Assembly: GCA_028278425.1 (NCBI GenBank)
Contig: JANQEJ010000093.1
Coordinates: 1 to 57,055, forward strand
Source: Planctomycetota bacterium
GTDB lineage: Bacteria > Planctomycetota > UBA1135 > GCA-002686595
Length of the DNA stretch: 57,055 nucleotides
Direction of reading: 5' to 3'
Shown: in pieces, positions 24,070-29,525 of the stretch
Layout: each line of letters begins with the position of its first letter
How positions within the stretch are numbered: the first letter of the stretch is position 1
Program-made: the position numbers and the translations under genes
Notes under the pieces: generated by a model
Databases searched by the model: none
The model's input: only the letters and a program-made list of their open reading frames with translations
What the model was told of the DNA's origin: nothing

Positions 24070-25200
24070 ATGGGAAGCGACCGCACCCTCCTCGCCCTCC
24101 TCGCCGCCGCCGCGGCCGGCGCGTGCGCGACGACGCCGAAGCCGCCCGCGCCCTGGGCGGAGCCGGTGCTCGAAGCCGAGTGGGCGCCCGTGGAGTCCTC
24201 GCGGTACGGGCTCTTCGAGCGGGTCGACGCGCTGCGCGCGCTCGGCGAGGTCGGGCCGGCGGTGCCGAGCGCGCCGTTGGACGCGGCTTCGCTCGACGCG
24301 CTCCTGCCGCCCGAGGGCCTCGCGGAGGGGGCGACGTGGAGACCGGACCACCGGCCGCTGTTCGCGCTGCTCGAGCGCTTTCATCCCGGAGCGACGCCGC
24401 ATCTCCACCACGGTTCGGGCGCGGTCGGTGCGCGGGCGGTGCTGCTCGAGCGCTCGTCGCGCCGCACCGACGTCCTGGTGCGCGTGCACGCGGACTTCGT
24501 CATCGGCGAGCAGGTGTGGTACACGCCGGCGCAGTTCGAGGGGCGCGCGGTGTGGGAGGGCGGCCAGCTCGTCTGGTTCGAGCTCGGGCTGCCGCCGAGG
24601 GACACCAACGTCGACGCGAACGCCTACGACGAGGGCTTCGGCGCCGTGCTGGCCGACATCGGGTATTGCCCGCGCATGCGGCTCGCGCCGCGCGCGGCTG
24701 CGGGGCTTGCCGGCCCGCCATCCCGCGACGAGGAGGAGCTCGCCGCCGCGCGCCTCGCCTTGGCGCGGGCGTTCTACCGCTTCGCCGCGATCGACTGGCT
24801 GCCGCTGGATCGCGCCGTCGAGCTGGCGCGCGATACCGGCCGCCCCCTGCACGCGGTCCTCCTCTTCGGCACGCTGGACGACGAATCCTGTTGAGGCACC
24901 GGCAAGGCGCTGAGGGCGGGTCCGCTCTCCGACACCGCGGTCATCGAGATCCTCGACGCGAGCTTCGTCTCCACCTGGGTACTCGCCAAGGACCTGCCCG
25001 CGATGGCCGCCGACGCGTCGCTCGACGCGGACACGCGGCGCGTCGCCGCCGAGCTCCACGAGCGCTACGCGTATCCCGTCGACACGCAGGTTCTCGCGCC
25101 GGACGGCGAGCTGCTCGGCCGCCGCAAGGCGGGCGGCGCGTCCCGCGAGCCCTACGACGCGTTCCTCGCGGCGTGCTTGGAGGAGGCGAATCGACGGTAG
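24070..25200 (+). CDS. Selenoprotein N (SELENON)-like lipoprotein with in-frame UGA (Sec275)
   Basis: The frame runs from ATG 24070 through TGA 24892-24894 to TAG 25198-25200, giving 376 residues with selenocysteine at 275. Coding character and homology continue after the TGA. Residues match animal SELENON in order: VWYTPAQFEG, then ELGLPPRDTNVD (about 150-182), ADIGY, IDWLPLDRAVELARDTGRPLHAVLLFG, then LDDESC-U-GTGKALR, then ASFVSTWVLAKDL. The S-C-U-G redox motif is the SELENON active site. The EF-hand of the animal protein is absent. Residues 1-19 form a lipoprotein-type signal (lipobox ending AGAC), so the protein is probably periplasmic or membrane-anchored, where it could reduce disulfides or peroxides. 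A hairpin at 24912-24929 fits a bacterial SECIS. Standard gene callers would split or truncate it at the TGA. Confidence 0.85.
24912..24929 (+). promoter_or_regulatory. Candidate bacterial SECIS hairpin
   Basis: GAGGGC-GGGTCC-GCTCTC forms a 6-base stem (one G-U pair) with an optional extra G-C pair, leaving a GGUC apical loop. The G-U of the loop (24920-24921) lies 26-27 bases after the UGA, within the range typical for bacterial SECIS elements. E. coli fdhF carries a comparable GGU loop recognised by SelB. The structure was drawn by eye. Confidence 0.6.
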
Positions 25201-25259: not shown

Positions 25260-26066
25260 ATGAAGATGCTGCTCGCGGCGACCGTCCTCCTGGTCGGCTG
25301 CCACACGACGACGCGTACGGGTCCTGACTTCTCGGCGGTCAGGGAGACGTGGAACACGATCGCCATCCTGCCGCCGGACGTGACGGCGCTCGAGAAGGTG
25401 AACGGCGCCTACCGGGAGAATCCGGACCTGGCGCGCGAGATCGGCGAGGAGCTCGCCGCGTTGCTCCCGGAGCGGGTCGCGGACCTCGAGCTCGAGCTCC
25501 GCGAAGCGCAGTGGACGGCGCCGCAGGCCGATCGCATCCACGACGATTTCCGCGGCGCCGTCGATGAGCTCTACGCCGACGCCCTCGTCGTGCACGTCGT
25601 CGAGGCGAAGGGAGTGCGGGCCGAATTGAGCTCGGCCCGTCCCGCGGCGCTCGCTCCGGTCGAAGCGGACTGCTACCTGCACGTGTGGTTCGTGTCGGTG
25701 CTGAACGTGGCCGACGACTTCGTGCGGCTCCCCAAGGACGACCTGCCGCCGCACTTCGACATGGCGAGATCCGACCGGCGCTACGACGCGGTCGTCGCCG
25801 CCTTGATCGATGCCGAGAGCGGCGAGGTTCTCTGGTCGAACCGGGTGGACGAGAGCACGGACGAGCTCAAGCGTCCCGAGGTCGCGGAGCTTCTGGCCAC
25901 CGCTCTCGAGCCCTACCCGGGCATGAACTACATCTACCAGGACAGCGGCTACGGCTACGGCGGCTACTACTACGGCGCAACGTACTACGACGGGGGCGGC
26001 TACACGCCGCCCCCGGTTCGGGTGCCGAACGTCCGCACGGCGCCGGTGCGGGTCCGGTCGCGCTAG
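25260..26066 (+). CDS. Lipoprotein of unknown function with Tyr/Gly-rich tail
   Basis: A 268-residue protein beginning with a lipoprotein signal (MKMLLAATVLLVGC, Cys14). The body (about 25-220) has an alternating beta/helix pattern starting NTIAILPPDVTAL, the usual opening of GNA1162/curli-assembly-like outer-membrane lipoproteins, and a strand-rich VVAALIDAESGEVLWSN element seen in such domains; this resemblance is weak. The last 40 residues are low-complexity (YGYGGYYYGATYYDGGGYTPPP), perhaps a flexible surface tail. GGAGG six bases before ATG 25260 supports the start. It is 59 bases after the selenoprotein gene and may be co-transcribed with it. Confidence 0.6.
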   Translation: MKMLLAATVLLVGCHTTTRTGPDFSAVRETWNTIAILPPDVTALEKVNGAYRENPDLAREIGEELAALLPERVADLELELREAQWTAPQADRIHDDFRGAVDELYADALVVHVVEAKGVRAELSSARPAALAPVEADCYLHVWFVSVLNVADDFVRLPKDDLPPHFDMARSDRRYDAVVAALIDAESGEVLWSNRVDESTDELKRPEVAELLATALEPYPGMNYIYQDSGYGYGGYYYGATYYDGGGYTPPPVRVPNVRTAPVRVRSR

Positions 26067-28352: not shown

Positions 28353-29525
28353 TCACCGCCGGTGCAGCCAGGCGTGGAGCTCGTCCGCGACGATCCGGTT
28401 GCCGTACCACGACAGGTGGCCGCCGACGTACACCAGGTGCTCGTGCTCGCCCGCGGAGTACGCGCGCTGCTCCCGGGCGAAGGCCTCGGTGAAGTCGATC
28501 CAGGGCACGCCGCGGCGGTCGAGCTCGGCGTGGAGCATGTCCCAGTGCATCTCGCCGGTGCGGAGGTACTCGAGGAATCCTTCGAGCGTGGGGAAGATGA
28601 GCACCGGCGCCAGCCGCGCTCCGTCGGCGAGGGCCTCGCGGTGGAACGCCTCCAGCAGCGCGACGGTCACGCGGAACGGCTCGCCGTCGGTGTCGCGCCA
28701 CAGGCGGCTCTCCTGCCGTGCGCGGTAGGCGAAGTAGCCGGCGGCGAGCCGGCCGAACGACGACAGCCGCCCGGTCGGCACGCTCGGACCGATCCAGTGC
28801 TCGCCGTCGGCGACGCGCTCGACGACGGAGTCGTCCTCGAGCGCGCGCCAGAGCTCGTCGCGCGTCGCGAAGGGCTGGGGGAGCAGGACCAGCTCGTTCC
28901 CCTCGAGCAGGAAGCGCGGCTTCGCGGCGCAGAAGCCGCTCGTCGGGTTCCAGAGCGGCCGGTAGCGATTCACGTTGCGCCCGACGTTCTCGGTCAGGAT
29001 GCCGATGCACACGACCTCCGCGCCGAGGTCGCGGCCCAGGCGCCGGTAGCGCAGGAGCGCCTGGTCGGTGCCGTATCCGCTCACGCCGAAGTTGAGCACC
29101 TCGAGCTCGCGGTGCCGTGTCTCGAGCGAAACCTGGAAGGTCTTCTTGTCGCTGACGTCGTCGCAGAAGGTGAAGGAGTCGCCGAAGCAGACGATGCGGG
29201 TCACGCCCTCGGGTGGGGACGGGGCGTACTCGCGCGTGCCGCGCGCCCCGATCGAGTTGACGTGGAACATCCCGTCGGGACTCGCGGTCGACGGCTCCCA
29301 GCTCCAGCCGAGCTCCGCGTCGAAGCGTCCGATGCCCTGGCCGCGCTCCTCCTCGTGGAGGGTCCGGGCCCACTCCACCTGGAGCGGGTGCGTGAACGAG
29401 CGGAAGGGCGGGAGCGGCAGGCGCCGGAAGATGCCGTCACCGGTCGCGAAGACCGTGACCAGAACGTCGGCGGCGACGAGCACCGCGACGGGCGCGACGA
29501 TCCGCAGGAGCGTCTTCCGGCTCAA
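28353..29525 (-). CDS. SGNH/GDSL-family hydrolase, membrane-anchored
   Basis: A 390-residue protein with an N-terminal membrane segment (about 6-27, LLRIVAPVAVLVAADVLVTVF) and an SGNH domain: block I CFGDSFTFCDD (Ser117), block II LNFGVSGYGTDQ, block III TENVGRNVNRY, and the catalytic His in GGHLSWYGNRI at the C-terminus. The start is TTG, three bases after the stop of the VOC gene; no better ATG or GTG lies near, so TTG is accepted. It differs from the SGNH gene at 9227 in length and block III. It probably modifies acyl groups on an envelope glycan; the substrate is unknown. Confidence 0.8.
   Translation of the reverse strand: MSRKTLLRIVAPVAVLVAADVLVTVFATGDGIFRRLPLPPFRSFTHPLQVEWARTLHEEERGQGIGRFDAELGWSWEPSTASPDGMFHVNSIGARGTREYAPSPPEGVTRIVCFGDSFTFCDDVSDKKTFQVSLETRHRELEVLNFGVSGYGTDQALLRYRRLGRDLGAEVVCIGILTENVGRNVNRYRPLWNPTSGFCAAKPRFLLEGNELVLLPQPFATRDELWRALEDDSVVERVADGEHWIGPSVPTGRLSSFGRLAAGYFAYRARQESRLWRDTDGEPFRVTVALLEAFHREALADGARLAPVLIFPTLEGFLEYLRTGEMHWDMLHAELDRRGVPWIDFTEAFAREQRAYSAGEHEHLVYVGGHLSWYGNRIVADELHAWLHRR

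Follow-up and report, generated by a model that had tools for sequence, protein, structure and literature searches.

Animal SELENON, mutations in which cause human myopathies, is regarded as a thiol-disulfide oxidoreductase of client proteins in the ER lumen. The SCUG motif of SELENON is stated in a review (PMC12839072) and a thioredoxin-type C-terminal domain is stated for SEPN1 in a 2020 paper (PMC7474598), as of which no structure had been solved. In two surveys, SelN is described as apparently animal-specific (2007; PMC2375036) and as present in algae, nearly always in the Sec form, and among the least widely distributed families (2020; PMC7539508). SELENON is not named in the available text of five papers on bacterial selenoproteins (PMC13188914, PMC9312934, PMC12013277, PMC2398784 and PMC1088965), the only word matches, in PMC13188914 and PMC9312934, being selenonucleoside, selenoneine and 'selenoprotein neighborhoods'. 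A phrase search for bacterial selenoprotein N matched a single paper, which deals with a human disease gene. A SELENON-like sequence may have been mentioned for a sponge-associated bacterial candidate phylum; the sponge-associated bacterial literature searched did not contain 'selenoprotein N'. No bacterial SELENON was found among the open-access journal articles searched. What is described here is a SELENON core in bacteria, without an EF-hand and with a SECIS of the bacterial kind, for which priority is not claimed, the literature search being partial.

The window, by which we mean the whole stretch of 57,055 nucleotides analyzed from a Planctomycetota bacterium, contains a complete gene at 24070..25200 on the forward strand, composed of 376 codons and a TAG stop (25198-25200), with the UGA at codon 275 taken as a putative selenocysteine (Sec) codon. 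The original prediction was of a frame that stays open through TGA 24892-24894, and translation of 24070-25197 indeed gives 376 residues with that TGA (U275) as the sole interruption; table 11 translation yields exactly the 274-residue product, ending at the TGA, that conventional annotation had been expected to report. The four motifs on which the prediction drew (VWYTPAQFEG, LARDTGRPLHAVLLFG, ESCUGTGKALR and ASFVSTWVLAKDL) are all found as quoted. The predicted Sec codon (24892..24894, forward strand) is adjoined by the TGT codon of Cys274 (24889..24891, forward strand), and together with the flanking residues they form S273-C274-U275-G276, in which the UGA takes the place of Sec in the SCUG redox motif. 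We regard it as very probable that this gene encodes a bacterial homologue of SELENON, the UGA of which is likely decoded as Sec by the host SelA/SelB/SelD/tRNA-Sec set, most likely under the direction of a hairpin just downstream.

Relatives were sought in two overlapping genome sets, 154 genomes of the class and 392 drawn from the phylum. The class search found any match in 24 genomes, of which 10 hold full-length genes (11 genes) and 14 hold short matches only. The phylum search, run at a threshold of E <= 1e-15 that would hide weak relatives, found a match in 12 genomes and added six full-length genes and one N-terminal remnant, giving a total, with the window's gene counted, of 17 full-length genes in 16 genomes. 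Each of these genes has Cys at the first position of the pair, followed by TGA and never by a Cys codon, a count that leaves out the remnant (L070 in G267, N-terminal part only) and all short matches. The remnant loses its frame before the Sec site, either through decay of the copy or through an error in the assembly. The residue following U is G in nine genes, P in four, L in three and A in one, so that the final G in the S-C-U-G motif of the original prediction, present in the window protein, is shared by 9 of the 17 genes. Homologues with Cys in place of U, which that prediction had suggested looking for, did not appear in full-length form in either the class (154) or the phylum (392) search, and a scan of the genome contigs with one Cys-only pattern gave no relative. 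Of the 33 match rows in the class search, six lack a TGA, and since all six are short matches, Cys-form relatives of the thioredoxin domain may exist.

The expected similarity to animal SELENON on both sides of the TGA is borne out by sequence comparison, all comparisons being run with C substituted for U. BLASTP aligns the window protein with SELENON of the elephant shark Callorhinchus at 1e-32 (27% identity, residues 63-355) and of Petromyzon at 8e-27, and all 17 bacterial genes match both of these proteins (E 4e-41 to 4e-21, as single comparisons). An hhalign comparison of eight bacterial with five vertebrate sequences gives a probability of 100 and an E value of 1.6e-47 over residues 28-374, spanning both the N-terminal and the redox domains. 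The 101 residues past the TGA, taken alone, match six of six vertebrate SELENONs (E 9e-13 to 9e-5, as single comparisons) and 16 of 16 bacterial relatives (9e-26 to 1e-10). The vertebrate sequences, from records named Selenoprotein N, were obtained with a human SELENON query sequence. It matched 378 proteins overall, one of them from Homo sapiens and 100% identical across 72% of the queried region; among the best 120 of the 378, every organism given is a vertebrate. The window protein resembles animal SELENON in the homology that flanks Sec on both sides, in its S-C-U-G motif and in a predicted C-terminal domain of thioredoxin type, and differs from it in being shorter (376 residues versus 590 in the human query sequence), in lacking an EF-hand and in carrying its SECIS-like hairpin within the coding sequence, whereas the eukaryotic SECIS lies in the 3' UTR (PMC12013277).

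The protein begins with a hydrophobic leader (residues 1-19, 24070..24126, forward strand) that is modeled by AlphaFold2 (AF2) with a helix at residues 6-16 and is probably a signal peptide. A lipobox has the form L/V/I-x-x-C and closes the signal peptide; by eye, the corresponding residues are A16-G17-A18-C19, with the Cys in place and no L/V/I at -3. Of the lipoprotein leader in the original prediction, the sequence shows a hydrophobic N-terminus ending at Cys19 and a putative, weak lipobox (A-G-A-C). Animal SELENON is a type II membrane protein of the ER, an organelle that bacteria lack; no type II anchor was recognized by eye in the window protein. Next follows a β-rich domain of SELENON type (residues ~33-207, 24166..24690, forward strand), assigned by hhalign with vertebrate SELENON and marked by the motifs FHPGA, WYTPAQFEG and DIGY.P.M; modeled alone by AF2 it has a mean pLDDT of 92.5, and it found no strong match among PDB structures. 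Neither the bacterial protein nor the bacterial profile found a relative when PDB chains were searched by sequence. The absence of an EF-hand, as originally proposed, is seen in the alignment with the human query sequence, in which the window protein fills 9 of 37 EF-hand columns, within the range of 0-12 found in 13 of the 17 genes; the remaining four (L026, L029, L040 and L068) fill 31-34 of the 37. Pfam gave no match in the eight members scanned, a set that includes L026 and L029 (L040 and L068 lie outside it), and NCBIfam gave no family for any of the eight. Because the EF-hand is absent, we describe the window protein as a bacterial SELENON-core homologue and not as SELENON proper, and the calcium-sensor role of the animal protein is not carried over to it.

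The C-terminal domain (residues 239-376, 24784..25197, forward strand) is predicted to adopt a thioredoxin fold, in which the AF2 model places Cys274-Sec275 at the thioredoxin active-site position; the active-site loop (273-279) has pLDDT below 50, so the model does not fix the geometry of the Cys-Sec pair. The best structural neighbors of the model are 3f9u, AGR3/AGR2, 1sen and DsbH, all of which we take to be thioredoxin-like proteins and not peroxidases. The match to AGR2/AGR3, ERp18/19 (1sen) and DsbH covers the C-terminal domain only, and the window protein is unlike them in its neighboring Cys-Sec pair and its extra N-terminal domain. The protein would be exported by its N-terminal leader, Cys274 and Sec275 would form a selenenylsulfide, and, by analogy with SELENON, the enzyme would act on clients outside the cytoplasm as a thiol-disulfide oxidoreductase, without an EF-hand calcium switch. 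An alternative is that the pair reduces peroxides instead of exchanging disulfides with clients, since a thioredoxin fold with adjacent Cys and Sec could support either kind of reaction, and weak Foldseek matches of the model include peroxiredoxins (E 0.026). Peroxidase-like activity is nonetheless unlikely in view of the structural neighbors above and of the description of animal SELENON as an oxidoreductase in the review (PMC12839072), and we consider disulfide exchange to be the probable chemistry. Comparison of the gene neighborhood across copies gave no clear functional clue.

The relationship between the bacterial and vertebrate proteins was examined in an unrooted tree. The six vertebrate sequences form one shallow clade (100/100), L026, L029, L040 and L068 form a group of their own, and the other 13 bacterial genes fall together (97/95); the 17 bacterial genes make up nine families, as numbered by the tool, separated by long branches. 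One genome (G033) has two full-length copies, L021 and L029, one on each main bacterial branch, which points to old paralogues or transfers within the family. The bacterial genes could descend by transfer from an animal or algal SELENON and not be older in bacteria, as the tree holds no algal members, can be rooted either way, and includes several rows, the window's among them, of unusual letter composition. That direction of descent appears quite improbable against nine bacterial families on long branches versus a single shallow vertebrate clade, and against a bacterial-type SECIS that lies within the coding sequence. We tentatively suggest, at somewhat less than even likelihood, that SELENON arose as a bacterial invention, an exported oxidoreductase that is Sec-only in the sampled bacterial branch, and was later taken up by eukaryotes, which added the calcium-sensing EF-hand; on a bacterial origin, the lack of Cys relatives would explain why searches built on Cys/Sec pairs missed the family.

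The genes for Sec decoding on which the original prediction depended (selA, selB, selC and selD) are represented in the window genome by selA (4.4e-124), selB (2.6e-106), selD (2.7e-93) and a tRNA-Sec (74.8 bits, anticodon UCA), and this host set likely decodes the in-frame UGA as selenocysteine. The selD gene (L010, 467-1528, reverse strand) has an in-frame TGA of its own near the N-terminus, in the motif YAACAGU, and a hairpin with the loop GGUCU that starts 25 nt past the UGA; this loop echoes the GGUC loop of the SELENON-like gene. Among the 16 gene-bearing genomes, tRNA-Sec scores over the cut-off in 16, a count weaker than it appears because five of 14 control genomes are also positive and one gene-bearing genome (G296) reaches only 49.4 bits versus a cut-off of 47. 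A selB gene scores over its cut-off in 15 of the 16 (the exception is G081) and in two of the 14 controls, in which selA is likewise found twice. Counted over the class genomes, with the six phylum genomes outside the count, selA is present in eight of the 10 that hold the gene and missing from G020 (67% complete) and G081 (77%); as 144 of the 154 class genomes have selA, its co-occurrence with the gene has little power.

The predicted bacterial SECIS hairpin lies at 24912..24929 on the forward strand, where 24912-24918 pairs with 24923-24929 in a 7-bp stem around the loop GGUC (24919-24922), with 24 bases between the UGA and the loop. The position, the GGU-type loop and the start at 18 bases past the UGA are those originally proposed, and the end falls at 35 bases, not 37. 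PMC13188914 limits bacterial SECIS elements to a loop of 3-9 nt, a stem of 4-16 bp, a G in the first two loop positions and 16-37 nt from UGA to loop; all 17 genes fall within these limits, which were applied on loop, stem, G position and spacing, the paper having a further free-energy constraint. The 17 hairpins have loops of 4-5 nt with G first or second and stems of 5-9 bp, and the loop lies 24 nt past the UGA in 12 genes and 18 nt past it in five. The 12 genes, the window's included, share a Type I hairpin, [GC]AG[AG]GC[AG]-GGUC-[CU]GCUCUC, and the five, which carry a C-terminal extension, share a Type II hairpin, CCCUC-CGUGC-GAGGG. The Arg codon of the Type I stem is AGA/AGG in 12 of 12 genes, whereas 20 of the 342 Arg codons outside it in these 17 genes have this form; the Type I Gly codon is GGT in 12 of 12 versus 34 of 325 Gly codons elsewhere. 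The Type I counts were made by eye on the sequences, and we argue that this bias reflects selection on the RNA.

Statistical support for the hairpin differs between the single gene and the family. Type I positions are paired in 98.8% of cells, with G-C as the loop-closing pair in eight genes and A-U in four; only one of the seven pairs has changed on both sides, a level reached by 425 of 500 shuffles, and the number of additional pair types falls short of the shuffled mean. The window hairpin alone has a shuffle z of +0.63. A hairpin as good or better in energy follows 41 of 259 other codons in the window gene and, with all genes pooled, 374 of 4403, which shows the published SECIS criteria to be permissive. 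Under synonymous recoding, 69 of 2000 recoded sequences equal the window hairpin (0 to 751 of 2000 gene by gene), and the 17 genes combined give p 6.6e-11, a value that overstates independence because the genes are related. The hairpin is thus ordinary in the window alone; across the family it is conserved and its codon choice is unusual. This conserved element just past the UGA most likely steers decoding.

Readthrough of the TGA as an amino acid other than Sec, by general suppression or a reassigned code, would leave the same sequence record, since the inserted residue is not visible to sequence analysis. It is very improbable, given that the codon follows a Cys at the Sec position of SELENON, that the SECIS-like hairpin is conserved, and that the genome has selA, selB, selD and tRNA-Sec, with selD itself bearing an in-frame TGA. 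TGA is also the stop of seven of the 11 other window ORFs judged to be genes, which indicates that it is not reassigned in the host code.

Were the TGA a true stop, the gene would encode a 274-residue protein and the remainder would be a relic. Homologues ending at the same position had been set in advance as evidence against readthrough, and in a database search in which ~8000 candidates were scored, all 12 homologues examined, of 13 found besides the window's own, do end exactly at the Cys before the TGA. One of the database relatives (P0003) is 62% identical over 66% of the query, and another record (P0011) is the same gene as L026, one of the 17. The frame continues in 17 of 17 genomic cases, and the database endpoints follow from annotation, as gene callers end at the TGA. 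The remnant that loses its frame before the site (L070) could also be taken in favor of termination. Against it, the codon is TGA in all 17 genes, with no other stop and no Cys codon among them, the genome has full Sec machinery, the post-TGA part matches animal SELENON, and the predicted thioredoxin domain would be halved by termination. In the close pair L026/L040, dN/dS is 0.095 after the TGA versus 0.072 before, and differences after the TGA fall 9, 3 and 30 by codon position. Purifying selection after the TGA is thus similar to that before it in this one pair, and we regard a true stop as barely credible.

That the protein is an unrelated thioredoxin-fold selenoprotein with a merely SELENON-like active site is scarcely tenable: a pairwise identity of only 27%, the occurrence of other C-U thioredoxin-like proteins in these genomes, the lack of a Pfam or NCBIfam family for the eight members scanned and the poor retention of human W453 (W in one of 17 genes) and R466 (R in none; K in 12, T in four and Q in one) speak for it, and against it stand homology that spans the N-terminal domain too, identity with human H293, G315 and R469 in 17 of 17 genes and with N340 in 16 of 17 (residues aligned and numbered on the human query sequence), and a bacteria-only profile that scores this human sequence at 225 bits over two domains, with none of 2000 shuffles of that sequence, nor its reversal, reported at E 10.

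Other C-U proteins in these genomes are observations in their own right. The window genome encodes a second thioredoxin-like C-U protein (L031, 1324-2307; G000:C81, ~64.4-65.4 kb) with the motif LGRLDEEFCUTNARIARS. A hairpin lies 15 nt past its UGA, and as the one protein of this kind scanned, it resembles Thioredox_DsbH weakly, below the curated cut-off. Similar proteins in other genomes (L033, L045-L048 and L050) share with it the C-U at the site, a hairpin that starts 15-17 nt past the UGA and an LD-rich context (LDEEFCU, LDDELCU and similar), and differ from the SELENON-like proteins in that the SELENON-like profile matches them in the thioredoxin part alone; they may represent a further unannotated selenoprotein family. 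In G055 (L027, 1414-2694), a TGA-containing thioredoxin-like domain (LDDGNCUPGS) fronts a longer protein with another C-terminal part, and G022 holds another candidate selenoprotein (L032, 1423-2481) with the motif TGCWU.

The five loci with the Type II hairpin (L022, L023, L042, L064 and L066) have an additional domain at the C-terminus. In four of them a GntR/aminotransferase (MocR-like) regulator of similar kind is encoded upstream in divergent orientation, with Pfam domains checked in one (L072). Downstream of the window gene is a small lipoprotein-like gene (25260-26066, forward strand) with no Pfam family, a homologue of which was found beside none of the 15 other copies compared. An SGNH/GDSL-like gene (28353-29525, reverse strand; Pfam below cut-off) lies ~3 kb from the SELENON-like gene; G022 and G077 also have a homologue of it close to their SELENON-like genes, in the opposite relative orientation. 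A CHAD-domain gene is also among the window neighbors; with this gene nearby, relatives in 15 other genomes and a hairpin of the bacterial kind, contamination by animal DNA was considered and rejected.

The family marks a blind spot in annotation, in that its proteins are cut at the TGA (12 of 12 examined) and no Pfam or NCBIfam model covers the eight members scanned. Bacterial selenoprotein search methods that rely on Cys/Sec pairs, as described in PMC13188914, would miss it, since no full-length Cys form was found. Four automatic vertebrate SELENON records (P0066, P0131, P0059 and P0102) skip or alter residues near Sec (for example SC-SGRT and SCAGSG), so the blind spot extends beyond bacteria. 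Patient mutations named in PMC12839072 include c.943G>A, p.Sec462Arg and p.Arg466Gln, of which c.943G>A translates to codon 315 in the numbering of the human query sequence, a position identical in 17 of 17 bacterial genes. Being short and free of the calcium switch, the bacterial homologue would allow the structure, redox chemistry and client of SELENON to be studied apart from calcium.
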